Positions 3 through 34,538 of a stretch of 34,609 nucleotides of DNA are shown here, piece after piece. The DNA is taken from the IMG/VR virus record IMGVR_UViG_3300022745_000110, positions 1-34,609 of that record. The stretch is one strand, 5' to 3'. Under the pieces are notes generated by a model, which was given only the letters and a program-made list of their open reading frames with translations, searched no databases and had not been told where the DNA came from. How positions within the stretch are numbered: position 1 is the stretch's first letter; the number at the start of each line of letters is the position of its first letter. The stretch comes from a virus. The position numbers were made by a program, and so were the translations under genes.

Positions 3-368
3 ACTCAGAATCGCTTAATGAAGGCTCTGAGGCCGCTACTTAAGTCTCCCTGTCATGTAGTTCTACTAGCGCATGAGCGGAAAACTACAGACAAGACTAC
101 AGGGGTTACGACTTTCGAGTCTGACTTCGCGCCGCGTCTAAGCAAAGAAATTAACCGCGGCCTCCAAATGATTGGCCGTATGACTGTGAATAGTAATGGT
201 AGCCGTGAACTAATTGTCCGTCCAGTCAAGGGCACACAGGCTAAGACTAGGCTTGATGTACCTAGTAACCCTACGTTGATTCAGGTCATTAACGCTTCTC
301 GTGATACCCCTGTAGCCCCCACAAACTCCGTTGTGTCAACTGATACAGCGGATAACCTAAGTATCTAG
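3..368 (+). CDS. Sak4/RecA-like phage ATPase, C-terminal part (5' end outside window)
   Basis: The reading frame is open from base 3 with no stop before it, so this is the end of a gene that begins upstream; the ATG at 18 is internal. The visible part resembles the C-terminal half of phage AAA_24/Sak4-type RecA-fold ATPases: a strand VVLLAHERK (core beta-strand ending in His, then charged residues), followed by acidic and polar residues and a helix EINRGLQMIGRM, the usual layout after Walker B. The Walker A and B motifs are not in the window. Such proteins act in single-strand annealing recombination or replication and are often encoded beside a DUF669 protein, as here. The stop TAG (366-368) overlaps the AGGAG ribosome binding site of the next gene. 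It carries two copies of the dispersed CTACAGGGG word (97-105 and 307-315, opposite orientations). Family assignment is inferred from pattern and context. Confidence 0.6.
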   Translation, partial: TQNRLMKALRPLLKSPCHVVLLAHERKTTDKTTGVTTFESDFAPRLSKEINRGLQMIGRMTVNSNGSRELIVRPVKGTQAKTRLDVPSNPTLIQVINASRDTPVAPTNSVVSTDTADNLSI

Positions 369-378
369 GAGTAATGAA

Positions 379-792
379 ATGTCGCTTTTTGGTGACCTCG
401 ATATCGAGTCGGCTGAGGATGACCCGTTTGCTATCCCGGATAACACGTACGATTGTTACCTGACGGATGTTAAGGTCGGTCCTACCAAGAATGGTGATAA
501 GACTGGCATGACCCTCGAATTTACTATTGCCGAGGGTGACCACAAGGATAAGAAGATTCAGGAGTGGAAGCGAATTCCTGACCCTTCGAAGCCTGCCGAT
601 GATGATGAGCGGGCTAAGTCTTTCCTTAAGGCTCGTATGCTTGACCTTGGTATTCCGGCTGAGAAGATTAATTCTGTGACGCCGGACGACCTTCTCGGTA
701 CCCACTGTCACGTGTCTGTTAAGAACAACAACGGTTACACGAATGTTCGTAAGGTTACGCTTGCGCCTACTTCGGGTGTGACCTTCCAGTAG
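379..792 (+). CDS. DUF669-like recombination/ssDNA-associated protein
   Basis: 137 aa, acidic N-terminus (SLFGDLDIESAEDDPF) followed by alternating beta-strand segments (YDCYLTDVKVGPTKNGDKTGMTLEFTIAEG) and a C-terminal strand NVRKVTLAP. This shape and length match DUF669-type phage proteins, which have an OB-like fold and are encoded beside Sak4/AAA_24 ATPases and thought to bind single-stranded DNA or the ATPase. The start ATG has AGGAG at 367-371 with a spacing of about 7. Its leucine codons are CTC, CTT and CTG, with no TTA, unlike several neighbours. It is probably cotranslated with the upstream ATPase gene. The function is inferred from family likeness and position; no catalytic motif is visible. 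Confidence 0.55.
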   Translation: MSLFGDLDIESAEDDPFAIPDNTYDCYLTDVKVGPTKNGDKTGMTLEFTIAEGDHKDKKIQEWKRIPDPSKPADDDERAKSFLKARMLDLGIPAEKINSVTPDDLLGTHCHVSVKNNNGYTNVRKVTLAPTSGVTFQ

Positions 793-798
793 TAGAAA

Positions 799-870
799 TA
801 CAGCGGTTCCTTCGAGCCAGGGTAAAAGGGACAAGATTCGTCAGGCTCACTAATCACCCTTCCCGCTGTA
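799..870 (+). ncRNA. Structured element upstream of tRNA-Leu, possible pseudoknot
   Basis: Between the DUF669-like gene and tRNA-Leu. Outer arms TACAGCGG (799-806) and CCGCTGTA (863-870) are perfectly complementary. Inside, GAGCC (814-818) pairs with GGCTC (844-848), while AGGGT (819-823) pairs with ACCCT (856-860). The two inner helices cross, which is the layout of an H-type pseudoknot. No open frame is seen. It may be a leader or processing element for the tRNA, a small RNA, or an attenuator for the upstream unit. Found by eye, no folding energy was computed. Confidence 0.35.
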
Positions 871-871
871 C

Positions 872-944
872 GGCCGATTAGCCCAACGGCAGAGGCAGAG
901 GACTTAAAATCCTCAAAGTGTGGGTTCGAATCCCACATCGGCTA
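872..944 (+). tRNA. tRNA-Leu(UAA), short variable loop
   Basis: Cloverleaf read by eye. The acceptor GGCCGAT (872-878) pairs with ATCGGCT (937-943), with one G-U at the end pair, and the discriminator is A944. Then T8, A9, a D arm with GG, the anticodon stem GAGGA/TCCTC with loop CTTAAAA, and T arm GTGGG-TTCGAAT-CCCAC. The anticodon is UAA, reading UUA leucine codons. CCA is not encoded. The variable region is only 5 nt (AAAGT), class I, whereas bacterial leucine tRNAs are normally class II with a long variable arm. A73 fits leucine identity. Confidence 0.85.
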
Positions 945-967
945 CATTCCCGATTTTAGGAGTTACC

Positions 968-1336
968 ATGATCGTATGCGATATTGATGACACACTCCTA
1001 CATGATGGAGTCTATCCTATTCCCAAGACAATTAAATTTCTCAATGCCCAGGGTCAGCCGATAGTAATTATTACTGCTCGTCCTGAATCTGAGCGGGACC
1101 GTACGATGATCGCACTCCATAAGGCTGGTGTGAAGTTTACCAAACTTCTTATGAAACGACCAGGCTTGACTGATGCTGCTTCCAAATTGGAGAATGTTCG
1201 TTCGCTACAGGGGGTAACGCTAGCAATCGATAACAACCCTGACATGCGGGCCGCTTACAAATCTATTGGTATTCCGGTCCTAGACCCGGCGACAATTAAA
1301 AGGAGTAGTTTCAGTGGGCAAGCAGCAAAAGCCTAA
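968..1336 (+). CDS. HAD-superfamily phosphatase
   Basis: 122 aa. The N-terminal DIDDTLL is HAD motif I (DxDx[TV]), with the nucleophile Asp near residue 5 and the general acid two residues later. VIITARPE is motif II (hydrophobic-Ser/Thr-x-R). A Lys follows in the region KLLMKRPG, and AIDNNPDM is the acidic motif IV. Length and lack of a large cap match the small phage HAD proteins related to polynucleotide kinase 3'-phosphatase or 5'-nucleotidase domains, but no kinase domain is attached. Start ATG 968 has TAGGAG (957-962) upstream with a 5-nt gap. An upstream in-frame start would lie inside the tRNA and was discarded. It overlaps the next gene by 23 nt. Substrate unknown; a role in nucleotide salvage or nucleic-acid end repair is inference. 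Confidence 0.8.
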   Translation: MIVCDIDDTLLHDGVYPIPKTIKFLNAQGQPIVIITARPESERDRTMIALHKAGVKFTKLLMKRPGLTDAASKLENVRSLQGVTLAIDNNPDMRAAYKSIGIPVLDPATIKRSSFSGQAAKA

Positions 1337-2437: not shown

Positions 2438-2445
2438 GGAGCGTG

Positions 2446-4221
2446 ATGGATAATGTGACCGCACTTAACCCATCGCGTGACCTCTCAGAGTTCTTCGAAT
2501 TTATGTATGGTGACCAAACGGGTTATGCGTACGTTCCGGTCAAGCATCCAGAGACAGAAGAATGGACGTCGGCTTTCTTTAACTGGCCGACAGAAAAGAC
2601 TGAACTGGTCGCGCATGTATTAGGACATACAAAGCAGAATGAAGTTTACTTCGGCCCTGCCCTGTATACAGCGCCTCATGCAACAAAAGAATACGTCAAG
2701 GGTACCTACATGCTGTGGGTTGATTTCGATGGGAATGCCCCGGAGAATTATAACATTACAGGAGTTGCGGTCCCTTCTCTTATCGTTCAGTCTAGTGATA
2801 AAGGTCATGAGCATGTTTACTGGAAACTCGACTATTTCGAAGTTGATTCCGATAACATCGAACGTGCTAATCGTGCATTGGCTTACTCACTCAAAGCCGA
2901 TACATCTGGATGGGACGTCACTCAGGTCTTACGTCCTCCTGGGACCAGTAATCACAAACGTAACCGCCCTGTAGCAATAAGTCAGCAATGGTCCGGTAGT
3001 ATTAGTGTAGATATTTTTGACAACCTACCCCATATCCAAGAGGTTGTTAAAGATATCGATCTAGGGTCTGTCCCTGATGCACTTGATGTTATTGCTAAAT
3101 TCGTATGGGACCAAGAAGCATTTGCCTTCTTCCGTAAGAAGGAAATTCCGACTGGTTCTCGTTCGTCGGCAATGATGCGTCTCGGCTACTACTGCGCAGA
3201 AATGGGTATGTCGGATGAAGAAGCATTTAGTATTCTTGACAATGCCGATCAACGCTGGAAGAAGTTCGTTAAGCGTAGTGACCGTAAACGGCGTCTGCTC
3301 GATATTATTAACAGGGCGCGTCTTAAGTTTCCGCTTGACCCCCAAGAAATCATTATTGACGAATTTCCCGTTTATCACTACCAGGATTTTCTTGACTCAG
3401 ACATTACTGTGGAATGGATCTTACCAGGATTTCTACAGCGTGGTGGTTCGGTACTTCTTTCGGGACCGGCTGGTACTGGTAAGTCTCAGTTAACCCTACA
3501 GTTCGCTATTCACATGGCGCTTGGCAAAGATTTTCTTGGCTGGAAAATCGACAAGTGCTACAAGATGGCTTTCTTTAGTCTCGAAATGGGTCATGCTGAA
3601 CTTAAATATTTCCTAACACTGATGGATGAAGTGCTGACGCCTGAGGAACGAGTTAAACTTAACGAGAATTTTATCTGGCTGCCATTGGGTGAGGCATTAC
3701 TACTTGCATCGCCAGGCGAACAAACTAAGATTCAGAGGTTTATCGATGAACACGCCCCTGACGGTATCGTATTTGACTCCCTCTCGGTTACAACGGAAGA
3801 TGAACTCGCGTCAGAAGTTGCGACTAAAGCAATCTTTATGTTCGTCAACAAGTTGCGGAACCAGCACGACATGTTTGTTTGGTTCATCCACCACAACCGT
3901 AAGGCACAAACTAACAACAAAAAGCCCAACAAACTCTCAGATGTGTTTGGTTCGTATATTATTACTAGCCAGCCCACGGCGATCGTTAACCTTTGGCCGA
4001 CTGCTAAAGGAATCGAAGTTACAGGGCTTAAGATTCGTCTTGCCCCGCCGTTCGCGTTTAAAATCTCTCGATCAGAGCATCTGACATTCGAGAAGATTGA
4101 GCAGTCAGATGTTTCACCAGAGGATCTTAAAGCGATGGTAGCCAATCTCGGAGGGGGTGACGATAGTAATGGTAATGATGACGCATCAACCGGGGAAGGT
4201 AATTCTTTCCTTGGCTTCTAG
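2446..4221 (+). CDS. Primase-helicase (PrimPol-like domain fused to RecA-fold helicase)
   Basis: 591 aa from ATG 2446, with TAGGGAG about 5 nt upstream; a GTG 3 nt earlier is possible. The N-terminal part looks like an archaeo-eukaryotic primase (PrimPol) domain: VDFD at about 92-95 (metal-binding DxD), SSDKGHEHVYWK at about 117-128 (the SxxGxH-type motif) and RPPGTSNHK at about 163-171. A helical linker follows (about 225-290). The C-terminal half is a RepA/DnaB-like RecA ATPase: Walker A GPAGTGKS at about 340-347, Walker B GIVFDSLSV near 440, and a sensor strand MFVWFIHHNRK. The last 25 residues are Gly/Asp/Asn-rich. It would unwind the fork and lay primers for the polymerase encoded next; the two genes overlap by about 50 nt. 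The primase call rests on motifs seen by eye, while the ATPase call is firm. Confidence 0.85.
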   Translation: MDNVTALNPSRDLSEFFEFMYGDQTGYAYVPVKHPETEEWTSAFFNWPTEKTELVAHVLGHTKQNEVYFGPALYTAPHATKEYVKGTYMLWVDFDGNAPENYNITGVAVPSLIVQSSDKGHEHVYWKLDYFEVDSDNIERANRALAYSLKADTSGWDVTQVLRPPGTSNHKRNRPVAISQQWSGSISVDIFDNLPHIQEVVKDIDLGSVPDALDVIAKFVWDQEAFAFFRKKEIPTGSRSSAMMRLGYYCAEMGMSDEEAFSILDNADQRWKKFVKRSDRKRRLLDIINRARLKFPLDPQEIIIDEFPVYHYQDFLDSDITVEWILPGFLQRGGSVLLSGPAGTGKSQLTLQFAIHMALGKDFLGWKIDKCYKMAFFSLEMGHAELKYFLTLMDEVLTPEERVKLNENFIWLPLGEALLLASPGEQTKIQRFIDEHAPDGIVFDSLSVTTEDELASEVATKAIFMFVNKLRNQHDMFVWFIHHNRKAQTNNKKPNKLSDVFGSYIITSQPTAIVNLWPTAKGIEVTGLKIRLAPPFAFKISRSEHLTFEKIEQSDVSPEDLKAMVANLGGGDDSNGNDDASTGEGNSFLGF

Positions 4222-5935
4222 CGATCAAGAGTTCGACCAGTTTATTACGTATGCTAGTAAGGCTCCTATCCTTGCAGTAGATACTGAGGCCAATGGCGAA
4301 GAAGTACGGGATACTCGTGGTCAGTGTATGGGTATCTCGATGGCCTTTAGGGGTACTGATGGCGTGCTATTTGCCGCCTATATGCCCTTTCGCCATGAAG
4401 ACTATAATTGGTCAGAAGCGCGTTTAGCCCGGGTAAGAGACTTGCTACAGGGGCATCCATGCCTAGTGGCGCATAATATGAAGTTCGATATCGTCTCTCT
4501 TAGTACGCTCGGTATCAAGGTTACTAATATGTTCTATTGCACCATGCTTATGGCTCATCTTCTGAATGAGAACGAGTTTAACTACTCACTAGATGCTCTC
4601 ACTAAAAAATACCTCAACGATGAAGGCAAACGTACTAGTGAGGACTTCCTTGCGATTAAGGCTGAGTGTGGTTGGGCAGGTATTCCGGCCGCGGTGATGT
4701 TCGACTACTCCGTCTATGATGCCGAACTACACTTACGTCTCTTTGAGTACCTTCTTCCAAAGTTTATCGCTGAGGGTATCGAAGAGTATTGGATTAAGTA
4801 CGAGAAGCCCTTTATGGAGACTATTATCCTGATGGAGTCTCGTGGCATTGCGATCGATGAGAAAGTAATCATCACGGAGTGGATGCGCGGTAGTAAAATT
4901 AAGACCGAAATCGTCGAACGCCTCGGCCGTAACCCAGGCTCCCCTGTAGAACTCGAAAAAATGCTGATTAATGAGTTGGGCCTTCCTGTAGTAAAGCGTA
5001 CTAAGGCTGGGCGGGTATCCTTTAACAAGGAGGCTATGCAAGAGTACGATGATATGCTAAGCCGTGAAGATAACTATTTAGCGAAGGAAATCTTCACTTA
5101 CCGCGGATGGCAGAAAACACTCAGCAGTAACTATCAGGCTTACATGAAATATAGGAGTCCAGATGAACGACTCCGGTGTAACTATAAACTTCACGGTACA
5201 AAAACTGGAAGACTTAGTTGCGAGGAACCTAATCTCCAGCAGATCCCCCGAGAGTCCACTAACGATTGGAATGGTAACCTTAAGGCTGCTTTCGTACCAG
5301 CCCCAGGTTACAAACTTTACGAAGCAGACTTCTCTCAACTTGAGTTACGACTCGCTGCCGCCTATGCCCAGGAAAGAGGACTACTCGAAGTCTTTGAGCA
5401 AGGACGAGATATTTTTACAGAAATGTCTCAGGGCATTGGAATGTCTAGACAGGACACCAAGACACTCACTTATACCATCCAATATGGTGGTGGTGTTACC
5501 CGAATATCCAATGTCTTCCGAGTCACCCCTGAGCGAGCGGCTGCTATCCGCCAAAACTTCTATAGTACATATCCAGGGTTTCGAAAAATCACGGAGTTGG
5601 CTGCGAATAAATGTAAGGCCGTTGGATCAATCAGACTATGGTCCGGTCGATACCGGCACTTTGAGGATCGACGTGGCGATGCACACAAAGCCTTTAACTC
5701 AGTAATTCAGGGTGGGGCTGCGGACGTAGTTAAAATGGTCATGAATCGGTTACGAACTGAGGTTGACCATGACGAAGAATGCCGTATGCTTCTACAGGTA
5801 CACGATAGCGTAGTATTTGAAATTCGGGAGGATGTGCTTATGGACTACCTACCGCGCATCCAAAAAATCATGACTGACTTGCCTGAATTCGGAGTAAGGT
5901 TTGCAGTCGATATCCACGAATGGGGTTCCAAATGA
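4169..5935 (+). CDS. Family A DNA polymerase with 3'-5' exonuclease
   Basis: About 588 aa from ATG 4169. The exonuclease domain shows VDTEANGEE (Exo I DxE near residue 38), VAHNMKFDI (Exo II) and YSVYDAEL (Exo III YxxxD), so proofreading should be intact. The polymerase domain shows motif A YEADFSQLELR (Asp near 387), motif B RQDTKTLTYTIQYGGG (R...K...YG) and motif C LQVHDSVVFE (HD near 545). There is no 5'-3' exonuclease domain, as in T7-like and actinophage polymerases. The start is uncertain: GGTGA at 4156-4160 suits ATG 4169, while GTG 4157, ATG 4175 and ATG 4178 are alternatives. It overlaps the primase-helicase gene end, implying translational coupling. It carries two copies of the CTACAGGGG word (4445 and 4941). 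This is the replicative polymerase of the phage. Confidence 0.95.
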   Translation: MVMMTHQPGKVILSLASSDQEFDQFITYASKAPILAVDTEANGEEVRDTRGQCMGISMAFRGTDGVLFAAYMPFRHEDYNWSEARLARVRDLLQGHPCLVAHNMKFDIVSLSTLGIKVTNMFYCTMLMAHLLNENEFNYSLDALTKKYLNDEGKRTSEDFLAIKAECGWAGIPAAVMFDYSVYDAELHLRLFEYLLPKFIAEGIEEYWIKYEKPFMETIILMESRGIAIDEKVIITEWMRGSKIKTEIVERLGRNPGSPVELEKMLINELGLPVVKRTKAGRVSFNKEAMQEYDDMLSREDNYLAKEIFTYRGWQKTLSSNYQAYMKYRSPDERLRCNYKLHGTKTGRLSCEEPNLQQIPRESTNDWNGNLKAAFVPAPGYKLYEADFSQLELRLAAAYAQERGLLEVFEQGRDIFTEMSQGIGMSRQDTKTLTYTIQYGGGVTRISNVFRVTPERAAAIRQNFYSTYPGFRKITELAANKCKAVGSIRLWSGRYRHFEDRRGDAHKAFNSVIQGGAADVVKMVMNRLRTEVDHDEECRMLLQVHDSVVFEIREDVLMDYLPRIQKIMTDLPEFGVRFAVDIHEWGSK

Positions 5936-6870: not shown

Positions 6871-7022
6871 ACGATCATCCTAGGTACGTCGATCCCCCTG
6901 TAGTTCACCTAGAACAAGTTATTTACTGTGGACCCTGCTTAGCAGGGGATTACAGAGAAGAAGCAGTTACTATTCAGGGCGGCGATGCCCTGTGTAGTGG
7001 GCACTTCCTAGAGAGACAATAA
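6867..7022 (+). CDS. Cys-rich microprotein, zinc-knuckle-like
   Basis: 51 aa, starting in the ATGA overlap with the resolvase stop and ending at the foot of the terminator. It contains YCGPCLAGD and, 20 residues later, LCSGHFLE, so CxxC ... CxxH, a plausible zinc-binding set of four ligands. Similar tiny zinc-ribbon proteins are common at the ends of actinophage operons, functions unknown. The end codons overlap the first bases of the terminator palindrome. It contains one copy of the CTACAGGGG word, with five G (6894-6903), read as DPPVV. Confidence 0.6.
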   Translation: MNDHPRYVDPPVVHLEQVIYCGPCLAGDYREEAVTIQGGDALCSGHFLERQ

Positions 7023-7440: not shown

Positions 7441-8273
7441 TGTAATCCTAGACGCTTAACTGTTTCCGGCCCAGCGATACCATCAGCATCCTTACCAGTC
7501 CACCCTTGGGCGTGCTGGAATTTGCTACAGGCGGCTACAACTGCCGAAGTATAGTCGTCAACGACGACCCCAGTGTAATAGTGTTTGGCATAAAGTGCTA
7601 AGCAAAGATTCCAAACTGAATCAGAATTAGATTGACCAGCGTGCATCTTGTTGGAATAAACTTTCTTACCTTGACGGTAAGCATAGTGTGGAGGCGCTAC
7701 AGGGGGAGGCTTGTGATGCACATATTTAAGAGTATTGGCCCTCAATACCTCGATGTGGTAAAGCGTATCGTGCTTCCGGCCCGCAACATCGACGGGATGC
7801 CCAGCAACACAACTAGCCCATCCCTTGTGGTTAATCTCATTAGCGGCCGGGATGCCGAGCGAAAGTAACGCGGCATTCTGACGACCGAGAGACTCTAACT
7901 GCTGAGGAGTAAAGTCAGGAACTTGTCCCATAGATTCTACCTCAGTAGACCAACCCACAAGATGTAGACTATCAGCAGCGGCTACGCCAACCCAAGGCCC
8001 ACCTTTACCAGTACCCCAGCAAGATAAGCGACTAAGTACGTGAACTACTCCTTGCTTGTCAATGAGTGAGTTAACGTACGGGTATGACCCTCCAGAATTT
8101 TCGAGATATCCGAGGCTGTTGGTTCCTGCCGTGTGGTGGTCAATAATCGCCCTAAGACCTTGCGACCAAGGACGACCTTCTGACTTAGCCTTAAGCGGAA
8201 CCAGTACATAGTTCACTCCATGCGACTTAAATGCTGCTTCGATCTGTGCAGGAGTAGGAGTAGGATATCCCAT
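7425..8273 (-). CDS. Endolysin: N-acetylmuramoyl-L-alanine amidase with peptidoglycan-binding domain
   Basis: 282 aa. The N-terminal Amidase_2 (type 2 amidase) domain shows IIDHHTAG at 43-50 (zinc His), WSTEVESMG in the core strand, and CVAGHPVDVAGRKHDT (second zinc region and the Lys/Arg-Asp loop). A Pro-rich linker (KPPPVAPPH) leads to a C-terminal PG_binding_1-like domain (VVVDDYTSAVVAACSKFQHAQGW ... DGIAGPETVKRLG). It cleaves the bond between MurNAc and L-Ala and releases progeny, crossing the membrane with the holin encoded just upstream. The start ATG overlaps the stop of the preceding microprotein gene (TAATG). The linker carries the CTACAGGGG word on the + strand (7697-7706). Confidence 0.93.
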   Translation of the reverse strand: MGYPTPTPAQIEAAFKSHGVNYVLVPLKAKSEGRPWSQGLRAIIDHHTAGTNSLGYLENSGGSYPYVNSLIDKQGVVHVLSRLSCWGTGKGGPWVGVAAADSLHLVGWSTEVESMGQVPDFTPQQLESLGRQNAALLSLGIPAANEINHKGWASCVAGHPVDVAGRKHDTLYHIEVLRANTLKYVHHKPPPVAPPHYAYRQGKKVYSNKMHAGQSNSDSVWNLCLALYAKHYYTGVVVDDYTSAVVAACSKFQHAQGWTGKDADGIAGPETVKRLGLQWVQV

Positions 8274-9386: not shown

Positions 9387-12300
9387 TCAGCCTCCGTTTG
9401 CTTGCCTAAGGCGCTTGGTTAATTCACCAAGTGCTGATTTTTGATAACTAGGTCGGCTGCTATCTAGAGCACCAGTACCAGTTAGCCAGTTAAATAACCC
9501 TAGAGGGTTACCAGCACCGTCTTTCTGGCCTTTTTGTGTAAGCGGATCACCACTAATGGAACCTAATGGATTGATATTACTCAATCGCATAGCAGTACCA
9601 AGCATGGGAATTTGCTTTTGTGCCCATTCGCCGCTATCGACAATGGGAGCACCTGTTTGCATCTCATGTTGGGTACCCCATTCCGCAGGGATACGCAGTA
9701 ATGGAGACATACTACCTAAAATACCACGAAGCGGATCATTCAGGTATTGAGCACCGAGACCCTGGAAGGGTAATCCGCCAAATTCCATGCTGATTAAGCC
9801 ACCCATAGGGTTAGTACCTTGTAACCCAGGAATACCATTACTAGTAGGTCCAACACCATAAGTGGCTGCTGGGCCAAACGGTAATGCGTGCATCCAGGCC
9901 GGGTATAATTTATCCGTTGGGAACGGATTAGCGATACTAGGACCATTAATACCCTGAGCCTGTGCGACACCGTACATAATCTTCTGAGGAACTACTAACT
10001 TACCGGGGTGTGTAGCCATAGACTCAACAAGTAAGGGAATAGCCTTACGAGTCCAAGAGTAGAACGGGATGACTCTACGGAAATACTGCTTCTCAAACTG
10101 AGTCATACCATCGCCGGCCGGGTGCCACTTACGAACATCAGCAGCAGCCTTATCAAAAGCCCACGCTAACTGCTCGTGCGTACCCAGCGTGGCAGGAGCC
10201 GACTTCATGTATTTTTGTGTCTTGTACATGAAGTGACTAATGCGAACATAGTGCTCTCGACCGGCCGATAGGTGCTTTGCAGCATTACCAACATACCCAC
10301 CGAGAGGCTTTAACTTAGTGAGCGACTGAACAGCCGTACCCGTATTGTTAAGATCTTCGGCGGTACGGAATCCAGGTAATGCGCCGCGCTCATTCATAGC
10401 GTTGAGGATATCGTGGCTACTAATATCAATCTGCTTAGCAGCCTTACCTCGGCTAATTACCCGAATAGCGGTATCGTTACTTTCTTTAGCACCAGCCGCT
10501 AACCTACCAGCAGTAGTATCCCCCTGTAGCAACCTGTTCATAAAAGTGTTAATACCTTGCTCAGTCTTAAGGTCTTTATACATGCCGGGGTGGGCCTGCA
10601 TAACTTTAAGACCCTTAGCAAAGTAATGGACAGGTACACCAGCGAGCCATGCAAAGAAAGTATCACCCATCAAGTTGTTAGCGTGGTGAGACGGATTGTA
10701 GATGGTTGCACTAGTTTTCCACAGATTGAGGATATCATCATAGTATTTAAGTAACTGAGGGGTATGCTTCGGAGGAGTTTTAAGCATGGTCATCATATGA
10801 TCGAGTTCTTTGGCGATGCTAGGTTCGAATTTTAAACCAGCAAACTCGGGATGATTAGCCAAGCCAACTGTGTGTGTAGCCGAAGTTCCTGTTCTACCGA
10901 ATTGCTGACCTAAGTGATCGAATAAGATTTTCTCACTCACGGCCCGCTGTGCAGCATTTTCTAACTTATTCATAAGATCGAGAGGATCTTTAGTAGAGGC
11001 TGCCTCGATAGAGTGTAACCAGTCAATACCCTTAGAGTAATCTCTAATGACACCCGGAGCAACTGTGACTGCTTTAGCGTTCTGGAACTGAAAATCTGAC
11101 CCAACTTGTTTTAAGAATTTATTCATTGTCTCCATTGTAATACCAGTCCGAGCGACTACAGTATTACCTTGGTGAAGGTGTTGGGTAAAATTCCTGTTAC
11201 CGAACAGTGAACTATAGCGATTATTGAAGAATTTGGCAGCAGCACTAACAGCCTCATCAGGTGACTCGACCGCTAATCCAAAATGCTGCTTAAAACCAGC
11301 CACGATCTGCTCAGGAGTAAATTTACTAGACATAGCGTTGTACATAATATTACGGTGCTCAGCCACAAAGATAGCAGAGGCTAATGCACCCTTTAACTGA
11401 TGATATACGGTCGGCATCTGGCGAGACTCTACAACGCCGTTAAGGATAGTATCAAGAAGTCCGCTAGCACGGTAAGTATTACCCATAGCCTCATCAGCAC
11501 TCATAGCGCCGATGGTATCTTTTACTGAATTACCCTCAACAGCAACCATACGGTCAAGATGCTCAGTTACATTAGTAGCCTTTTGTGCCTCAGCAGCAAC
11601 ACTACGACCAGTAGCAACATCAATTTTAGCAGTAACAAGTGCTCGCATATTAGCAGCAGCATTACGCTCTACAGATACGGCAACAGGGTCAATAGGCTTC
11701 TGACCGTTATGGACAACAGCACTAAGTAAGTCTGTAACAGACTGCTGAACAGGAACACTTGCATCAGGAGATACTGCGTGAACAATATCACTTAGCAATT
11801 TAGGTGCGCTCTTGGCTACAGCAGCATCCCCAATAGGTGTATTACCAGCAGCATCCTCAGCCACTTTAACCGCTTGTTCGGCTACAGGGGCTACTTTACC
11901 AGCCTCACTAGCGACTAGTGTGCTTTGGGCCGCAATACCATTCTGAATAAGGGGCTTGATGCTGGGGTACATATCTGCGAGTTTGATAAGAGCATCATTA
12001 GTAGAACCATTTCGAGGATTAACCACATTCATGGCATCTACGGCGTAACTCTTACCGGCCTTAAAGTCAAAAATAAATTGCTCAGGAGTAGTACCACGGT
12101 CCTTGGCGATAGCCTGGATCATGTCACTTAACTTAAACGGGAAATGCTTGACATTGCTGAAAGACATAGGCGGGTGACCCAACTCGGCCGCCCTAACCTC
12201 AGCAGCCTTAAGCATATCCCAGGCTTTAGTAGCCGCAATAGTTTTATCTACTGCCTTGGTACCGTCGCTAACCTTACGCACAGATTGCCGATAGGCTAAA

Positions 12301-20779: not shown

Positions 20780-21631
20780 CTAAGTATTGTTAGAATTCAT
20801 AAGCATGTTGGTTACTAGAGCCCGACGCTCTGCATCCGACATTGCCGCAGGATTGACCTTATCGTTAACGATACCACCACCACCACCCATAACCCTAGGA
20901 GCCGGAGGCCTATTAGCGCCAGAGAGGATGTGACTCTCTAAGTTCTTATAGGCTGCAACAGCCTGCTCAGCAGTCTGTCCCGACAGCATATAACTTAAAA
21001 CGACTTTCTCATCAAAGTCGCCGTGTTGCTGCCTAAGTTCGTTAAGAGTGGTTTCGAGTTGGATATCTGCTTGCCTGACCTCAGCCTGGGACCTTTGCTC
21101 TAAAGCCATAGCCGCTAAGGTTTGGAATCCCTGCTCTAACTGAGCAATACGAGGATCAACCTCTAAAGACTCAGTATCTACAGGGGTTTGTGCGGCTACT
21201 GCCTGCGCTTGGGCTTGTTGCTGAGGAGTTAACTCAATACCAAAAAATTCTGCCATAGTACGAATAACTTCGGCAGGATTCTCATTAAGTGCTTGCACAA
21301 CTTGATGTGAGTAGGCAAGTTCCTCGGGGTCAATATTTTGCTCCCGGAACTGCTGGTAGGGAGCATATTCCTGCTGAATCGTTTCGTAACGTGACTGCAC
21401 GTTACGGTCCCAATCCTGTAATACAGGCCGGACCGTCTCATGAAGACTATCAGGCAGAATATCGAGGAACGGCTGCCAAGCCGGATTATCCTGTGCTACA
21501 GGGGTACTGTAAGATTCAGTAACCTCCGGCTCAGGGGCCGACTCAGATCCACCCGCGATGATATAGATAGGTCGTCCGTCTTTGCGGAAACCAAGAACAG
21601 TTCGGGGTGAATATTTAAAAGTAGTACGCAT
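20780..21631 (-). CDS. Capsid scaffolding protein
   Basis: 283 aa from ATG 21631 (AAAGGAA 9 nt upstream; an ATG 18 nt earlier has a worse site). Acidic and very rich in Gln, Glu and Ala: N-terminal ordered piece, then helix-rich QSRYETIQQEYAPYQQFREQNIDPEELAYSHQVVQALNENPAEVIRTMAEFFG, a Gln/Ala linker (PQQQAQAQAVAAQTPV), coiled coil RIAQLEQGFQTLAAMALEQRSQAEVRQADIQLETTLNELRQQHG, and a C-terminal capsid-binding region MSDAERRALVTNML. Its position just before the capsid gene fits scaffold. Two CTACAGGGG copies (21178, 21496). Confidence 0.85.
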   Translation of the reverse strand: MRTTFKYSPRTVLGFRKDGRPIYIIAGGSESAPEPEVTESYSTPVAQDNPAWQPFLDILPDSLHETVRPVLQDWDRNVQSRYETIQQEYAPYQQFREQNIDPEELAYSHQVVQALNENPAEVIRTMAEFFGIELTPQQQAQAQAVAAQTPVDTESLEVDPRIAQLEQGFQTLAAMALEQRSQAEVRQADIQLETTLNELRQQHGDFDEKVVLSYMLSGQTAEQAVAAYKNLESHILSGANRPPAPRVMGGGGGIVNDKVNPAAMSDAERRALVTNMLMNSNNT

Positions 21632-22253: not shown

Positions 22254-24392
22254 TTATTGTGGTTGTTGCTGGGACTGCATATCAGGCGGCGGGGTGGCAA
22301 TGGCACTATTTCCATCACTACCAGCACCACCGACATTGTTAACGTAAGAGCCATCGTTCTGACTAGCAACCTCGCCGGGTACACTAGAATTCATAGACTG
22401 AGACTGATCGCCACCTGGCATTGTGCTCTGCATAAGAGCAGCAACGTGACTACGGACGTGCATATCAAAAAGTTCCTTGACGTGATCAGGGAGAGCCTCG
22501 AAAGCCTGACCCTTTCGGAACTTGTTGTGAAGATCGATATGCTTACCGTGGTCATCCCAAGTATTGATAGGAACAGGAAGGTCTGGCGGGGGAATAGGCT
22601 TACCATCGGGACCGGTAAGTAATCCAGACTCAGGATCGGCCCACTGATCGTACTCTCCACTGATAGTATTGTACTCATCCATAAGAGCAGCGGACACCTG
22701 TTGCATACGGATATTCTCTCGCTGGATTTGACGATCATCCATTTCGAGATCCTCGTAAAGCGTATCCACTCCACCGACTTCGAGTAACTTAAGACCCTCA
22801 TCAGCAGGGATAAAGTTCATCTTCATAAGATCCATGATAAAGGCTTGTTTGGCTGCCTTGCTGGTAGGCAGAGCACTACCAGCCTCAACCTTAATATCCG
22901 TATTGTCACGAATATCAGAGCCCTTAAATAGCATGGTATCGAAAGAACTATTAGAACCAGTAGTACGAACAACGCGAGGCGTAGTCCAGAATTGAGATAC
23001 TAAGTTAAGAGCAATATAGGCTAACTTCTCTACACCTTCCTCAATAGAGGAGATAGCCCCAGAAATCTTAACATCGGCCTGTTCCATGAGATACTGGATA
23101 GCAGTAGCAGCATGAACACCAGGAGGTACCCCACCGCGAGAAATTTGATTCTGACCAGAAATGTCGTCAAATTCTAGATTTAGTCGGTCAATCTCTTGCA
23201 GAACATAAGCAGGTAACCCCTGTAGCGGTAAAGGCTGAGGAGGGGGAAACCCTAACCTATACTCAATGATCTGACCAGGCTCAGTAGTGATCTTAGAAGG
23301 GTCAATAGCACCAGCAGCGGCCAGAAGTTGAGGCTTAGCCATACGGTTCTTAGCCTCAATAATCTGAGCACGGGTACGGTTGTACTCTCGCTGCAAAGGA
23401 ATAAGATCGACAATAGGCGACCTAGCGTAGTATTGACCATTCTCAATACTATCTAACTTGACAAAAGGATACCGCTCTGCGTTGTAAGGCCAAGTATCAA
23501 CTAACTGAACGACCTTACCTCCGACAACTGTAATAAGACCACCATCAGGAAACTTTTGAGTCATGCCTGGTTTGATCCACATTTCTAGAACCAGAACCGA
23601 GTTCTTCTGTCGATTCTCAGTACCCTGTAAATCTAGATATGCAGAGTTTAGGATATCATCTTCACTAGAGACATTACCAGTTAAAGGCCCATCAAGATCG
23701 TCCTTATACCGATAAGTAGCCTCTTCGACACTAATAACAGAAGTATGGATAACCCAAGGCTGATCCTCGATATCAGGCTCTCGAAGATTTGGAATATAGA
23801 CATGGAAAGGAGTCTCTGATTTTACACAAATAATACCCATTTGATTAGACAATTTATCGATCTTGTTATCGTCCCACCAAATCTTAAGGTATCCAGTGCC
23901 GCAAACAGTAGACCACCAAACGCTCTTACGTAACTCTCTATGAATATCTAAATCTCGGTAAAGAGAATTCCAAATCTGTTCGGCAGCCTGGGCCGCCATA
24001 AGATCGATCTCATCTGCTGACGACGGAATAACAGAGGCAGTAGGTCGCTCTTTGGTTAATTTAGCAATTTCCTGTCGAACAATAGGACGAATCTTGTTAA
24101 AGACTGGCCTAACTCGCCAGGGAGGAGCAGGAGGCGTAGTAAATTTAAAAGGAGTGCCAGCACCAGGGACAGGAATAGATTGAACATACTGCCGTCCATC
24201 ATTAAACGACATATTCATATACCATTGGCGCTCAATTTTAGACCTACTAGACTTAGCCCTCTCGTAAGACTGCTGTACCCAAGAGGCTAACTTTGCTGAC
24301 TCTTCGGGACTGATCTTTTTCTCTTCGATCGGCGGCGGCGGGGGCGGAACACCAGGAACACTAGCCGCCGGCGAGCCCGTCATAATCGTCAC
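22254..24392 (-). CDS. Portal protein
   Basis: 712 aa from GTG 24392 (GGAGAGGAGG 9 nt upstream; ATG 24383 is 18 nt away). Pro-rich start (PPPPPPIEEKK), then WVQQSYERAKSSRSKIERQWYMNMSFNDGRQ and PVFNKIRPIVRQEIAKLTKERPTASVIPSS, the usual podoviral portal opening. Further conserved pieces are WWSTVCGTGYLKIWWD, YPFVKLDSIENGQYYARSPIVDLIPLQREYNRTRAQIIEAKNRMAKPQLL (stem helices) and the barrel-type C-terminus with DPESGLLTGPDGKPIPPPDLPV. It forms the dodecameric packaging channel. A CTACAGGGG copy lies at 23217. Confidence 0.9.
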   Translation of the reverse strand: MTIMTGSPAASVPGVPPPPPPIEEKKISPEESAKLASWVQQSYERAKSSRSKIERQWYMNMSFNDGRQYVQSIPVPGAGTPFKFTTPPAPPWRVRPVFNKIRPIVRQEIAKLTKERPTASVIPSSADEIDLMAAQAAEQIWNSLYRDLDIHRELRKSVWWSTVCGTGYLKIWWDDNKIDKLSNQMGIICVKSETPFHVYIPNLREPDIEDQPWVIHTSVISVEEATYRYKDDLDGPLTGNVSSEDDILNSAYLDLQGTENRQKNSVLVLEMWIKPGMTQKFPDGGLITVVGGKVVQLVDTWPYNAERYPFVKLDSIENGQYYARSPIVDLIPLQREYNRTRAQIIEAKNRMAKPQLLAAAGAIDPSKITTEPGQIIEYRLGFPPPQPLPLQGLPAYVLQEIDRLNLEFDDISGQNQISRGGVPPGVHAATAIQYLMEQADVKISGAISSIEEGVEKLAYIALNLVSQFWTTPRVVRTTGSNSSFDTMLFKGSDIRDNTDIKVEAGSALPTSKAAKQAFIMDLMKMNFIPADEGLKLLEVGGVDTLYEDLEMDDRQIQRENIRMQQVSAALMDEYNTISGEYDQWADPESGLLTGPDGKPIPPPDLPVPINTWDDHGKHIDLHNKFRKGQAFEALPDHVKELFDMHVRSHVAALMQSTMPGGDQSQSMNSSVPGEVASQNDGSYVNNVGGAGSDGNSAIATPPPDMQSQQQPQ

Positions 24393-25017: not shown

Positions 25018-25425
25018 TTACTCCTGGGGAGTGTCAGAACTAATAGAATCGGCTACAGGGGTAGCCTCAGTAGTATCGGCTACAGGGGTAGCCTCAGTAA
25101 TCTCCGACTCAGTAATCTCCGACTCCGGCTCAACAAGAGCCGTACCACCCTCGTTGTATAAGGGAATAGGAGTTAACTCAGCAGGATCGAAAATAGGATC
25201 AACCGTACCCTCAAAAGCAGTATAAGGCGATCCAGACTCGATAATAGTCTCAGGGTCCGGCGCAATCGGGTAGGCTAATTCGGGGGCAGGATCAAAGACA
25301 GTGTTTGCGGGAACCTCAGGCTCCACAAAAACAACATCGTGATTCGGCTCTCGATGCTCAGCAGCGGCTTGGGCTTCCTCTTTGTACCAAGCCTCAGCCT
25401 CTAAGAGATTGTTAAACTCTGGCAT
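25018..25425 (-). CDS. Acidic Pro-rich protein with C-terminal repeats
   Basis: 135 aa from ATG 25425 (GGAG 7 nt upstream; TTG 12 nt earlier is possible). Glu/Pro/Thr-rich with few hydrophobics, DPAPELAYPIAPDPETIIESG. The C-terminus has two tandem repeats, SEITESEITEATPVAD and TTEATPVAD, produced by two identical 16-bp units GGCTACAGGGGTAGCC 27 bp apart on the + strand. It follows the terminase gene. It may be a disordered linker or scaffold-like protein. Unknown function. Confidence 0.6.
   Translation of the reverse strand: MPEFNNLLEAEAWYKEEAQAAAEHREPNHDVVFVEPEVPANTVFDPAPELAYPIAPDPETIIESGSPYTAFEGTVDPIFDPAELTPIPLYNEGGTALVEPESEITESEITEATPVADTTEATPVADSISSDTPQE
25051..25094. repeat. Tandem pair of palindromic CTACAGGGG units
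   Basis: GGCTACAGGGGTAGCC at 25051-25066 and again at 25078-25093 (27-bp period), each an inverted repeat GGCTAC/GTAGCC around AGGG. The two units lie in the C-terminal repeat of the acidic protein. Two further short repeats, GTAATCTCCGACTCA-type, follow (about 25097-25125). They are the only close pair of the dispersed word in the window. Confidence 0.8.
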
Positions 25426-25426: not shown

Positions 25427-26944
25427 CTATTCTCCAAAAACTAAGTCCCACTTGGAATCTTGCTCGGCGGTAGTGCGTAATGCCGCATTTCTCTGAGCAA
25501 TTAGTAGATCATCCATCCGTCCGGCGACAGATACACCACTAACAGCAGTAAGCGGTATAGGTTCTGTAGTATCCAGACGAACAGGAGTAAGATCAGGCAT
25601 AATGGTGAAGAAATATCTAGCGGAATCGCAAGCGTGATCGTCTTTCTTGTGAATCTGATCATACTTATTGTTACGATTAGCCATTTTCTTACTAGCCCAG
25701 GTTTTCCAACGAAGTCGTTGCATCTCGTTAATGAGATTAGGACAATCTTCAGTAATGAACCACCTAGGCTTACCGTCTGATTTTTTGGGCTCTAGATACG
25801 AAGCAACTTTAGCAACACCAACTAGGACGTCATTGTTACCAGGATGGATATGAATACCTCTGGTAGCGTACTCAGTTTGGATACTAGTACCAGTAACTCC
25901 TTGTCGCTGCGCTGTGGCAGGATCACCTACTGTTAGAATCGGATTGACACGATATAGAGCCCGACGGCGATGTACCACATCAGCATGATAATCCACGGTA
26001 CGTTCCGCTTCATAATGTTCCCCGAATGTGATGACGTCACCATCGCTAGTAACAGCGTGCCACAAGAAAGCAGTAGGATTGTTATAACCGTGATCCATAG
26101 ACTCATAAATATCCATACCTAATTGCGGTTTCCAACTAGGAATTACATGTATATCTGGATCAAACTTTTTGTATACCAGGCCGCCGATCTGAATGAACTT
26201 TCCATGCAGACGGGCTTCCTTGTCTTCTGACGACATAAGACTTACTGCGTTGTCGATACCTTCTTGTGTAAGGTATGGATTTTCCATCATATCGACTTCG
26301 ATTACAGCGACTCGATGGTTGTCTCCACGCTTGCCAACAAGGTAAATTTGATCGTAGATCCATGACATTCCCTCTACAGGGGTCATAGTCATCCACCATG
26401 AACCATTGGTATCGACAAGACGCAGTAAGCACTCTGTAAAGATATCTTGCGGAGGTTCCTCGTCAAAATGAACGAAGTGTCGTGACGTACCCGCAAAAGA
26501 CGCTAGATCCTGTTCATATGTCATTAACTCAACAAACGAACCATTAGCCAATGTAAGCGTTCTAGACTCCTTACTATAGGAGTCAGTCCACGATCCATTA
26601 ATTAATGCTGATTTAGGAATCCATTGCTGTAGCATTGGTACGATAATCTTACCAATACCTTGGATAAAGTCAACACAAACGATACGACCACGGATCTGAC
26701 CCTTGGGAGTGGGCCTATACGGATGCGTACCTGTCAACCACCAGATATCTTCTACAATCCCACCTACAGATTTACCAGACCTGTTACCACCAATATATAG
26801 ACGCCCTACAGCATCTGCATTGTGGAACATCACCTGCTTTTTGTGTGGACGGTAGGTTAGTGCGTTGGGCTTGGTAACCCCACTCACTAATTGTTCTGCC
26901 AACCAATCCATAGGTGAAGAACCATCTAATGGCTTTTTAGCCAC
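25427..26944 (-). CDS. Terminase large subunit
   Basis: 505 aa from GTG 26944, overlapping the upstream stop (TAGTG). ATPase: YRPHKKQVMFHNADAVGRLYIGGNRSGKS, Walker A GGNRSGKS about 52-59, Walker B FVHFDEEPP about 157-165 and C-motif MTMTPVEGMSW. Nuclease (RNase H-like): MDHGYNNPTAFLWHAV (first Asp), TVGDPATAQ and DDHACDSARYFF (last acidic motif). The motor cuts and pumps DNA through the portal. Its neighbours upstream are fibre genes, and small terminase lies further upstream. A CTACAGGGG copy lies at 26374. Confidence 0.95.
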   Translation of the reverse strand: MAKKPLDGSSPMDWLAEQLVSGVTKPNALTYRPHKKQVMFHNADAVGRLYIGGNRSGKSVGGIVEDIWWLTGTHPYRPTPKGQIRGRIVCVDFIQGIGKIIVPMLQQWIPKSALINGSWTDSYSKESRTLTLANGSFVELMTYEQDLASFAGTSRHFVHFDEEPPQDIFTECLLRLVDTNGSWWMTMTPVEGMSWIYDQIYLVGKRGDNHRVAVIEVDMMENPYLTQEGIDNAVSLMSSEDKEARLHGKFIQIGGLVYKKFDPDIHVIPSWKPQLGMDIYESMDHGYNNPTAFLWHAVTSDGDVITFGEHYEAERTVDYHADVVHRRRALYRVNPILTVGDPATAQRQGVTGTSIQTEYATRGIHIHPGNNDVLVGVAKVASYLEPKKSDGKPRWFITEDCPNLINEMQRLRWKTWASKKMANRNNKYDQIHKKDDHACDSARYFFTIMPDLTPVRLDTTEPIPLTAVSGVSVAGRMDDLLIAQRNAALRTTAEQDSKWDLVFGE

Positions 26945-29678: not shown

Positions 29679-30430
29679 TACAAAACCCAATCAGGTGCTT
29701 TTGCTACAGGGGGCTCTATAGCAACAGTAACGGGCATTGATCTAGACTGTCCGGCCCCGGTCAATTCGCCTAAATCTGCGGCAATAGCCATGAGCGTATC
29801 CGCGTCATGAACATGCCGTTGTAATGTTTCTAGAATCTTAATCATGAGGAATTCAATATTAACCTCACCGGCAGATTTACCGGACCAGCGCCCAATCATT
29901 TCGTAATAGAGTTTGATCGAGTTTAGGTCGCCTCGCTCAACATTCTGCATAAGAGCGATATGAGCCGAGTGAGTGTGGTCACCTAGTAAAGATTCTGCCC
30001 GGTGACGTACATAAGATTGGAACTGAGGGTTCTTAAGCCAAGCGTTGTACTGAGCGGTGCTAACACCTAACTCGTTAAGTTTGGCTTTGGTGGCCCGCTT
30101 ATCCGAGAAGTCCATAATAACATTAATGGCACTTAACTGGATGGGCGTTAATCCCCGACCGGGAATCTGATCGTTAGGGTCAATCCCTCGGTTTTTTAAG
30201 GCGATTGTGACGGAGTAGTCATCATCAGGTGTATCCTGACTAAGCGAAACGGCAATCGCTACAGGGGAGTTAGGCCAGTCCGGTTCCCGTACCAACTTAG
30301 CGTGGTGGTCCGTCAGGTATCGAAAGATTACCTCGGACCCTGGCAACACACCGTTAGCCAGGTACTCCTGCTCACAAAAGTCAACAATCACTCGCTCAAC
30401 TGGAGTTAGTCGTCTAGGGGCGGTAATCAT
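29678..30430 (-). CDS. Terminase small subunit-like DNA-binding protein
   Basis: 250 aa. The central region LTPIQLSAINVIMDFSDKRATKAKLNELGVSTAQYNAWLKNPQFQSYVRHRAESLLGDHTHSAHIALMQNVERGDLNSIKLYYEMIGRW is the phBC6A51-type HTH plus helices of small terminases. The N-terminal part (LTPVERVIVDFCEQEYLANGVLPGSEVIFRYL) may be a second HTH. The small subunit recognises the packaging site on the DNA. It is encoded second in the late operon. Two CTACAGGGG copies, 29704 and 30259, lie inside it. Confidence 0.75.
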   Translation of the reverse strand: MITAPRRLTPVERVIVDFCEQEYLANGVLPGSEVIFRYLTDHHAKLVREPDWPNSPVAIAVSLSQDTPDDDYSVTIALKNRGIDPNDQIPGRGLTPIQLSAINVIMDFSDKRATKAKLNELGVSTAQYNAWLKNPQFQSYVRHRAESLLGDHTHSAHIALMQNVERGDLNSIKLYYEMIGRWSGKSAGEVNIEFLMIKILETLQRHVHDADTLMAIAADLGELTGAGQSRSMPVTVAIEPPVAKAPDWVL

Positions 30431-30987: not shown

Positions 30988-31120
30988 GGCTAGGGCTAAC
31001 CTTTCGGTTATGGCTACAGGGGTTTAGGTTGACAGTACCCCAAGGGGCTAGGTGGGGCCTGCGACCGCGTGAGCGGGAGGCACACTGTACTGTCCTTACA
31101 CGCGCGTGCGCGATACCTGA

Positions 31121-32490: not shown

Positions 32491-32496
32491 CTAAAT

Positions 32497-32856: not shown

Positions 32857-33072
32857 ATGTCGGAGTCACAGCACCAACTAATTAAGACCCGCTACAGGGG
32901 GCACCTAATCCTGTGCCGACGTTATCTCGGTTGGTATCCCAGCGGTACTACGCTTTTCGTTGTGGACGCGGCCGACACCGGGGGTAGTGTTTGGGGGCGT
33001 GGTTCTTCATTTCACACGGCTATGGCATCAGTAATCCAGGGTATTGATCTTTACGAAGATAAGTTTAATTAG
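32857..33072 (+). CDS. Unknown small protein
   Basis: 71 aa from ATG 32857 with GGGAGTAATCA upstream. Strand-rich: RYRGHLILCRRYLGWYPSGTTLFVVDAADTGGSVWG, then a helix HTAMASVIQGIDLYED. The pattern of a beta sheet with a C-terminal helix could be a small nucleic-acid or protein-binding fold. It carries CTACAGGGG (32892-32901). A small hairpin GGCCC/GGGCC (33072-33086) follows, possibly a weak terminator. Function unknown. Confidence 0.55.
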   Translation: MSESQHQLIKTRYRGHLILCRRYLGWYPSGTTLFVVDAADTGGSVWGRGSSFHTAMASVIQGIDLYEDKFN

Positions 33073-33157: not shown

Positions 33158-33159
33158 TT

Positions 33160-33470
33160 CGCCAAGATCGTCCGCACCATGCATAACCGCAGGTCAGACC
33201 CCATGCATACCCCACCCAAAACCCAGTACCCACGCTACCCCTTGCATACCCCCCATACATAAAGCCTACATACAGCCTGCATAACGCTCAATCGGAGCAT
33301 CGTCGCAGGTGAGGCCCGTTACCCCGTTATGCATCATCGGTGGGTAGCGGCACGCATAACGGGTGCATAACGCTCTGACCTGCACCTATGCACCCACCCG
33401 CTATGCACCCAAAATAATGCGATTACATAAGCACATTAACCTATCAACCCCGTTACCTATCAACCTAATT
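33160..33470. repeat. Repeat-rich gene-free region, candidate replication origin
   Basis: TGCATAAC is present at 33180, 33278, 33364 and, reversed, at 33326 (GTTATGCA). Variants are TGCATACC/TGCATAC (33204, 33243), CGCATAAC (33353) and TGCATAG reversed (33386, 33401). CCCGTTATGC (33323-33332) and GCATAACGGG (33354-33363) form an inverted repeat of 10 bp. GCAGGTCAGA (33189-33198) and TCTGACCTGC (33374-33383) form another, at the edges. TGCATAACGCTC appears twice. C/A-rich strands with few G (33210-33270). No coding frame is convincing. The layout is like iterons of a replication origin. A regulatory centre is the alternative. Confidence 0.5.
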
Positions 33471-33482
33471 GGAGGCCTTGCT

Positions 33483-33608
33483 ATGTCTTACCGTTGGTGG
33501 CACCCTAGCACTAAGTCCGGCCGGATTATCCAGATCATTGTCCGAGGAGTATTCCTCCTCGTCGTGGTAACGGCCGTCATGCTACTGTCCAGTATTGTCC
33601 CTAACTAA
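33483..33608 (+). CDS. Small membrane protein
   Basis: 41 aa from ATG 33483 with GGAGG (33471-33475). MSYRWWHPSTKSGRIIQII is amphipathic and basic; VRGVFLLVVVTAVMLLSSIVPN is one transmembrane helix. A longer form that starts in the repeat region has no ribosome binding site. Function unknown. Confidence 0.6.
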   Translation: MSYRWWHPSTKSGRIIQIIVRGVFLLVVVTAVMLLSSIVPN

Positions 33609-33621
33609 TCGGAGTCTAGTC

Positions 33622-34215
33622 ATGTCCACTACTGCCAACAATAAGCCAGTGTATTTTAAGATCACAAAGTCTGGTCGTAAATCTAAATACAATGATGACT
33701 TTGTATGGCCTGCCCACGGAAAGTGGGCACCCCCTGTAGCGCCTAAGTTGTGCTCGTCAGGCTACCATCTATTCACATTTGAGCACATCTGGACATATAT
33801 CCAGCACGGTACCGAACTATGGGTAGCCGATGGTAAAGGTATGTATGTCGAATCAGAAGATAAGATTGCTTTTGAGCAGGCTAGACTAGTCCGCCGAGTG
33901 CCTGGCTTTACTCCGGCTAATCTCGCATTGGCAGCCCAAGATATTGCTGATTCGGTAGAGTATCTATCTGCTACTAATGCTGCTTATTCTGCTAGGGCTG
34001 CTGCTTTGGCTGCTACTAATGCTAGGGCTGTTTATTCTGCTACTAATGCTGCTTATTCTGCTAGGGCTGCTCATAACCATGCTACTAATGCTAGGGCTGA
34101 TGCTGTTTATTCTGCTACTAATGCTGCTTATTCTGCTAGGGCTGATGCTAATGCTGCTAGGATGGACCAGAAAAATAAGAATACAGGATTTCTTCGCAAC
34201 AGGATTGGACTCTAA
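33622..34215 (+). CDS. DUF7666-like protein with alanine-rich repeats
   Basis: 197 aa from ATG 33622 (GGAG about 8 nt upstream). The first 110 residues are an ordered domain: YFKITKSGRKSKYNDDFVWP, LCSSGYHLFTFEHIWTYI, TELWVADGKGMYVESEDKIAFEQARLVRRVPGFT. It resembles DUF7666-type phage proteins with a C-x-x-G-Y/F-H motif (C53-G56-H58 approx.). Residues about 116-180 are repeats of SATNAAYSARA with A, R, D or H between. The DNA repeat unit is close to exact in three copies. The tail is basic (MDQKNKNTGFLRNRIGL). Function unknown; the repeat would form a helix or polar stalk. Confidence 0.6.
   Translation: MSTTANNKPVYFKITKSGRKSKYNDDFVWPAHGKWAPPVAPKLCSSGYHLFTFEHIWTYIQHGTELWVADGKGMYVESEDKIAFEQARLVRRVPGFTPANLALAAQDIADSVEYLSATNAAYSARAAALAATNARAVYSATNAAYSARAAHNHATNARADAVYSATNAAYSARADANAARMDQKNKNTGFLRNRIGL
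33966..34146 (+). repeat. In-frame DNA repeat in the alanine-rich gene
   Basis: A unit of about 36 bp starting TCTGCTACTAATGCTGCTTA and ending GCTAGGGCTG occurs at 33967-34001, 34036-34070 and 34111-34145. Shorter units GCTACTAATGCTAGGGCTG lie between, at 34012-34030 and 34081-34099. All are in frame (3n), so the number of copies can change by slippage without breaking the gene. Confidence 0.85.
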
Positions 34216-34217
34216 TC

Positions 34218-34538
34218 ATGCCACAGCGTCTTATCATCAATCCAACACTCCATGCTCGCGGCCGTATTGCACCCCCTGTAGTGCATTGGTTTATTGAGGG
34301 CATCAGTACCGCTTCATTTACTATTGGTCCCGATGATACTGTCGTTAGCAACCTGGGCCGAGTGCATCCTAGTATGCGCAAAGAAATAGACCGTATCGGA
34401 GTACAGATCCAGGATGCTTTCTCAGCGCTAGGTAATGGAAGCGCTAGCAAGGCTATTAGTGTTCTTATCGATGAGGGCATCCTAGTAGTGCGTGATTATG
34501 ATGACCAGCCGACTGATTATGAGGACTACCATGACTAA
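34218..34538 (+). CDS. Unknown small acidic-tailed protein
   Basis: 106 aa from ATG 34218. Strand-rich N-terminus (PQRLIINPTLHARGRIAPPVVHWFIEGISTASFTIGPDDTVVSNLG), then helices (PSMRKEIDRIGVQIQDAFSAL; SASKAISVLIDEGILVV) and an acidic end (RDYDDQPTDYEDYHD). The second half may be a DNA-binding or oligomer helix pair. It carries CTACAGGGG on the - strand (34272-34281). It overlaps the next gene by 8 nt. Unknown function. Confidence 0.6.
   Translation: MPQRLIINPTLHARGRIAPPVVHWFIEGISTASFTIGPDDTVVSNLGRVHPSMRKEIDRIGVQIQDAFSALGNGSASKAISVLIDEGILVVRDYDDQPTDYEDYHD

Follow-up and report, generated by a model that had tools for sequence, protein, structure and literature searches.

To our knowledge, the in vivo start sites of phage primases are known for few systems, and the choice among short motifs is open even for T7. 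The pRN1 primase ORF904 needs a template GTG, which is bound by its helix bundle, and the two bases on the 5′ side of this motif template the first dinucleotide (PMC8076596). GTG is also the start motif proposed for RepB′ of RSF1010 in ssiA (PMC4434180), and the NrS-1 PrimPol has the start motifs GTG(A/G) and TTTGGTTA (PMC8718748). In T7, about 26 sites on 37 kb are candidates for active use, Okazaki fragments measure about 3 kb, GTC has 504 copies on the lagging-strand template, and the flanking bases have a role (PMC12839067). Here, we describe a dispersed word, CTACAGGGG, in a viral stretch of 34,609 nt (IMG/VR record IMGVR_UViG_3300022745_000110, an incomplete contig, hereafter the window), together with the primase-helicase encoded by a single gene at 2443-4221. 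We consider it probable, from the sequences compared, that this word and its counterparts in other phages serve as priming sites for the AEP (RepB-like) primase that each phage encodes. An initial annotation of the window had left several functions for the word side by side (Chi-like sites, stoperators, priming sites and uptake words), with a mild lean to Chi; the comparison with other phages favours the priming sites on that list and not Chi.

On a single-stranded template, the window word reads 5′-CCCCT-GTA-GC-3′ (the form with the GTA core is 5′-CCCCTGTAGC-3′). The template strand of the words in general reads TGTG, TGTA or TGTC: GTG is present in the CCACACC, CCACAG, GCACAG, GCACAC and CGCACGG words, and its place is taken in the window group by GTA (CTACAG) or GTC (CGACAG). 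The best structural match of the window primase is RSF1010 RepB′, which likewise has a catalytic domain and a helix bundle; its start is sequence-specific, with a GTG motif. RSF1010 differs in having one 40-nt hairpin initiator per strand (ssiA/ssiB), whereas the phages considered here have about 20-50 short, dispersed, lineage-specific words, and the window primase forms one protein with an AAA helicase. ORF904 and the NrS-1 PrimPol are likewise AEPs and start just 5′ of a GTG-containing motif read by a helix-bundle domain, but their motifs measure 3-8 nt, while the words here measure 8-11 nt, are in genome-wide excess, change from phage to phage and include GTA and GTC versions. T7 gp4 is also a phage primase, with 5′-GTC-3′ sites, contributing flanks and a similar number of sites per genome. 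It is, however, of the DnaG/TOPRIM type instead of an AEP, GTC abounds there, and the T7 source consulted mentions no long word that is strong and selected.

CTACAGGGG is the commonest 9-mer of the window. Its 26 exact copies were mapped, as initially annotated, in both orientations: 17 on the plus strand (97..105, 1205..1213, 4445..4453, 7697..7705, 11882..11890, 13244..13252, 16515..16523, 17610..17618, 21178..21186, 21496..21504, 25053..25061, 25080..25088, 26374..26382, 29704..29712, 30259..30267, 31014..31022 and 32892..32900) and 9 on the minus strand (307..315, 4941..4949, 6895..6903, 10521..10529, 12476..12484, 14594..14602, 23217..23225, 33731..33739 and 34273..34281). The copy at 31014..31022 is the sole intergenic one. 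The strong excess claimed for the word holds under both models of composition: 0.27 copies are expected by dinucleotide shuffles, none of 100 of which reached 26, and a second-order Markov model, with an expectation of 0.24, also makes the word an outlier. The full word GCTACAGGGG is found at 19 of the 26 copies, and a weight matrix of the window word detects 33 sites in the window. Synonymous-codon shuffling, which holds every protein and codon pool fixed, left 0.6 copies in genes (at most 3 in 200 shuffles) versus 24 observed in called genes. Selection on the window word therefore acts at the DNA level and not on protein, as the initial annotation had proposed.

Different reading frames had also been proposed. 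This was correct for the 8 sense copies, which are spread over three frames, but not for the 17 copies antisense to genes, which all lie in a single frame and are read as x-Pro-Val-x. The other two antisense frames would encode a TAG stop or Cys. The Pro-Val dipeptide was counted 66 times versus 41 expected. Protein coding filters the possible site positions, and this cost, with the antisense frames limited, probably explains much of the strand bias. Plots of strand by position, made to look for an origin, gave no clear switch, and the bias largely tracks the reading frame. As for spacing, the evenness attributed to the window sites is slight (p about 0.03), and the gaps of more than 3 kb that had been singled out are unremarkable for this number of sites (p 0.15). 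Across 21 related genomes, mean spacings are 0.8-2.3 kb, and the sites are placed somewhat more regularly than by chance (combined z = -4.5).

The whole records of terminase relatives were examined for their top dispersed word. The theme common to these words is xACA(G/C); in the relatives that have the replication module, ACAG is constant and the preceding base differs by phage, each genome being enriched in its own variant. These include CGCGACAGGGG in G003 (32 copies) and G005 (45 copies), CGCTACAG in G001 (54 copies) and G004 (36 copies), AGCTACAGG in G006, GGCTACAG in G008 and G009, CCTACAGG in G015 and ctEqG8, CGCCACAGG in G017, CTTTACAG in Shocker (45 copies), TCCCACAG in Jasmine (23 copies) and AGCGACAG in DS1 (20 copies). 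The G-rich end, once taken as a hint of Chi, does not carry over, because a G-run is not common to all relatives and the shared part is ACA(G/C). G003 and G005, whose alignable DNA is 69% identical, have 8 sites in common (1.6 expected by chance) and 22 that are not; single sites therefore turn over and the word persists. Shocker has a second strong repeat, TACCCTAA (15 copies versus 0.04 expected).

In phages that have nothing but the replication module in common with the window, their capsids and hosts (Serratia, Pseudomonas, Mycobacterium, Gordonia, Microbacterium and Arthrobacter) being different, the top word is GGCCACAC (Dothraki and Pikmin), CCACACCC (Muddy), CCACACC (GTE2 and Lebethron) or GCACACCC (Molivia), and ACCACAC is also among the top words of such phages. 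CCACAC- and CCACAG-type words were found in otherwise unrelated Serratia, Pseudomonas, Brevundimonas, Mycobacterium, Gordonia and Microbacterium phages that bear the primase domain. The top word of JacoRen57 is CCACACCG, and Polewnik (CACAGGG) and DesulfoLS06 (TCCACAGG) agree with the word core. Selected, fairly evenly spaced priming sites whose specificity drifts between phages are the best explanation of the words. No earlier description of them was found in the literature searched, in a search that was not exhaustive. The Streptomyces phage KimJongPhill has 13 copies of CCGGGTATCC (0.09 expected) alongside its CCACACC word.

Chi is set by a host enzyme of the RecBCD/AddAB type, and the words resemble it in being short, asymmetric, frequent and G-rich at one end. 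A host-determined word, be it a host Chi, an uptake word or the site of a host factor, is nevertheless extremely unlikely here: two phages of the same strain, Arthrobacter sp. ATCC 21022, differ in their word (CCCACAG in Jasmine, GCACACCC in Molivia), the same core is found in phages of Proteobacteria and Actinobacteria, and the capsid relatives that lack the module have none. Judged from the phage genomes alone, the word is not one shared by a host and its phages, as Chi would be, and it tracks a phage gene.

In the sequences compared, the word tracks neither the capsid genes nor the host but the AEP primase domain. Absence of a homologue refers throughout to hidden Markov model (HMM) searches within the compared genome set; open reading frames (ORFs) were called crudely, and several records are fragments. 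Searches in 13 capsid/terminase relatives found homologues of none of the genes for the primase, polymerase A, Sak4, Cas4 and RuvC. The word is missing from twelve of these 13; the thirteenth, G023, bears a repeat that contains ACAG but is of a different kind. Since the word-less relatives retain the structural genes and, for the most part, the SNF2 helicase, these do not account for the word; the terminase, portal and capsid genes, the SNF2 helicase and the exo211-type protein were all rejected as candidates on their presence in word-less relatives. The repeat of the primase-less G023 is longer (about 13 copies, with the blocks GTTAAGCCTTA, CATCTGATTGGA and ATACAGGAACT), and it was set aside along with the long repeats of G022 and G030.

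Several phages carry the primase domain with part of the module. The Clavibacter phage CMP1 has the domain and the top word AGGCACAG (16 versus 0.63), with no homologue of polymerase A, Cas4 or Sak4 detected by HMM search. Jojan60 has the word GCACAGG (43 copies), and homologues of Cas4 and of the helicase part were not detected in it. The helicase part is dispensable for the word, since Molivia, CMP1 and Jojan60 bear words and lack a detectable homologue of it. This tells against a primase-helicase that reads the word as a site of loading, fork restart or primosome assembly rather than as a primer start. The same cosegregation data would fit such a role, as would a word that exceeds the known AEP start motifs in length, but the GTG/GTN core matches those very motifs, and we regard the role as unlikely.

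A Chi-like hotspot for the phage's own Cas4-type exonuclease or Sak4 recombinase is improbable. The Sak4-only phages phiHSIC and VCLv21 have no word of the ACA(C/G) type, CMP1 combines a strong word with no detectable Sak4 or Cas4 homologue, and neither Jojan60 nor Molivia has a detectable Cas4 homologue. What speaks for the hotspot is that Cas4 and Sak4 genes accompany the primase in most genomes, and that the word is asymmetric and present on both strands at about 1 per kb. CMP1 does carry another exonuclease and an annealing protein, and a Molivia gene is annotated as Cas4-family. Other proteins of the module (polymerase A, SSB or RuvC-like) are likewise co-inherited with the primase in most genomes, and one of them might read the word; this seems to us highly doubtful, given that Morrissey, with polymerase A and the helicase part only, has no word of the ACA(C/G) type, that CMP1 yielded no polymerase A homologue, and that no RuvC homologue turned up in many of the phages with a word. 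RuvC was also rejected as the cause of the word, no homologue having been found in distant word-bearing phages. VCLv21, a Variovorax phage with no AEP domain, has a dispersed word of its own, GTGGGCA/TGCCCACGGG (25 versus 2.6), which is perhaps another system.

The stoperators of cluster A mycobacteriophages are dispersed, asymmetric words that diverge with lineage and are read by the lysogeny repressor. The words described here are similarly dispersed and asymmetric and diverge between relatives, at about 25-50 per genome. Repressor sites are very improbable all the same: no integrase/repressor module was seen in the window (an incomplete contig), none is annotated in Jasmine, Shocker, DS1 or Dothraki, the sites lie inside genes on both strands, and the word tracks the primase across unrelated phages.

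Counted over whole or near-whole genomes, the top dispersed word contains ACA(C/G) in 35/37 domain-positive versus 1/16 domain-negative cases (Fisher 3e-10, a value that, like the other p-values, is overstated because the genomes compared are related). Such a word was also present in new contigs fetched by the primase domain, many of them short: 34/38 of the close, 42/67 of the GTE2-type and 2/9 of the remote contigs.

The predicted reader of the word is the N-terminal part of the primase-helicase, comprising the catalytic and helix-bundle domain (residues 1-300; 2443..3342, plus strand). By profile and by model, it belongs to the AEP superfamily and is RepB-like, with the Prim-pol fold and the catalytic acidic residues of that superfamily. 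A profile of 32 such domains matches PDB 6zp9 (the AEP domain of S-2L PrimPol) with 2e-4 and 3h20 (RSF1010 RepB′) with 0.03. The AlphaFold2 model of the domain has a mean predicted local distance difference test (pLDDT) score of 90.1, and Foldseek matched it best, over the whole length, to RepB′ 3h20 (4e-10), and also to S-2L PrimPol 6zp9 (4e-8) and to 3h25, RepB′ with initiator DNA (2e-7). D96 and D153 are invariant in the 32 domain sequences. The motif II histidine (sxH), H124, is invariant in the window group and replaced in the Gordonia/Mycobacterium/Microbacterium group. In the helix bundle, the column of residue 275, next to the invariant K274, has Tyr in 9/9 GACA-word primases and Phe in 36/39 TACA-word primases. 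With later contigs, Tyr is present in 10/10 GACA-type versus 4/40 TACA-type primases with a readable site; L372 (GACA, Tyr) fits this pattern and L374 (TACA, Tyr) does not. The covariation of F275/Y with the base before ACA, by far the best column on fewer than 6 independent pairs on the tree, is a hint at the source of specificity and is given as a lead only.

If the words are priming sites, we infer the following course for binding, priming, primer start and strand use. The helix-bundle/catalytic unit would bind the GTN triplet and its 3′ neighbours (GTG in most relatives, GTA in the window, GTC in others), and the primer would start opposite the bases just 5′ of the triplet. By analogy with pRN1, a similar register would predict primers starting with A, that is 5′-AGGGG in the window and 5′-ACC in the CCACACC group. 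With a copy on one strand or the other at intervals of about 1.3 kb, both templates could be primed at Okazaki-fragment-like intervals, whatever the direction of the fork.

Besides the relatedness of the genomes compared, several points weigh against priming. At 8-11 nt, the word is unusually long relative to the ~3-8 nt needed by known AEP primases. Many of the remote or short A3/A4 contigs have no word, none of this kind occurs in the cyanophage Pan2, which encodes a remote homologue of the domain, and the top word of CN1A (CGCACGGA) has GTG and lacks ACA(C/G). The ACA(C/G) core was fixed once the first two groups had been seen, and later sets then served to test it. In Mantel comparisons of word and protein distances, all module proteins gave values of ~0.2-0.5 and the primase was not singled out. 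A single origin would be expected to leave a strand bias; none of that kind was seen, although the coding constraint confounds the comparison. Finally, the argument for priming is drawn wholly from sequence.

More broadly, the chances seem to us evenly balanced that a whole class of phages has a primer start code of its own choosing, written as a word of 8-11 nt that is selected into the phage's genes about once per kb and drifts with the helix-bundle domain. If so, genome sequences would give access to the start specificity of thousands of AEP primases that are as yet uncharacterised. Were the words priming sites, the genomes of hundreds of phages would show, without experiment, which sites are active, what the specificity is and how the primer reads. 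A large set of unannotated actinobacteriophage repeats would then be explained, phrog_3123 (labelled unknown) would gain a function and a specificity, and codon and dipeptide choice, as in the Pro-Val excess, would be shaped by replication.

The C-terminal part of the same protein, an AAA (RepA/DnaB-like) helicase, is encoded at 3343..4221 on the plus strand (Pfam AAA_25, 1.1e-18; phrog_3123). The replication module further includes a family A DNA polymerase (4157..5935, plus strand; Pfam DNA_pol_A, 3.5e-69) and a Sak4-like recombinase (18..368, plus strand; phrog_124, 8e-12), the gene of which is cut at base 18 by the contig end; an SSB-like gene is also present in the window. The ORFs of the primase-helicase and polymerase A overlap by ~65 bases (4157-4221), and the two genes overlap in Jasmine and Shocker as well. 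Three tRNA genes lie between the SSB-like and primase genes: Leu(taa) at 872-945, Gln(ttg) at 1900-1971 and Lys(ttt) at 2160-2233.

The window virus is probably virulent and is actinophage-like. Its terminase shares 45% identity with that of Jasmine, an Arthrobacter podovirus whose terminal repeats are 1,330 bp long (PMC5513430). An Lsr2-like gene is present twice in Jasmine, at 373-927 and 45766-46320, within these terminal repeats (PMC5513430). At 33595-34215, the window encodes a protein with an imperfect repeat of ~10 residues (SATNAAYSARA), the coding repeats of which contain CTAATGCT and TGCTAGGGCTG. Finally, two 45-bp inverted repeats, 89% alike and with A/T tails (AATAAAAATACCCCCTAG...CTAGGGGGTATTTTTAT), were mapped to 7018-7062 and 32494-32538 and are likely bidirectional terminators.

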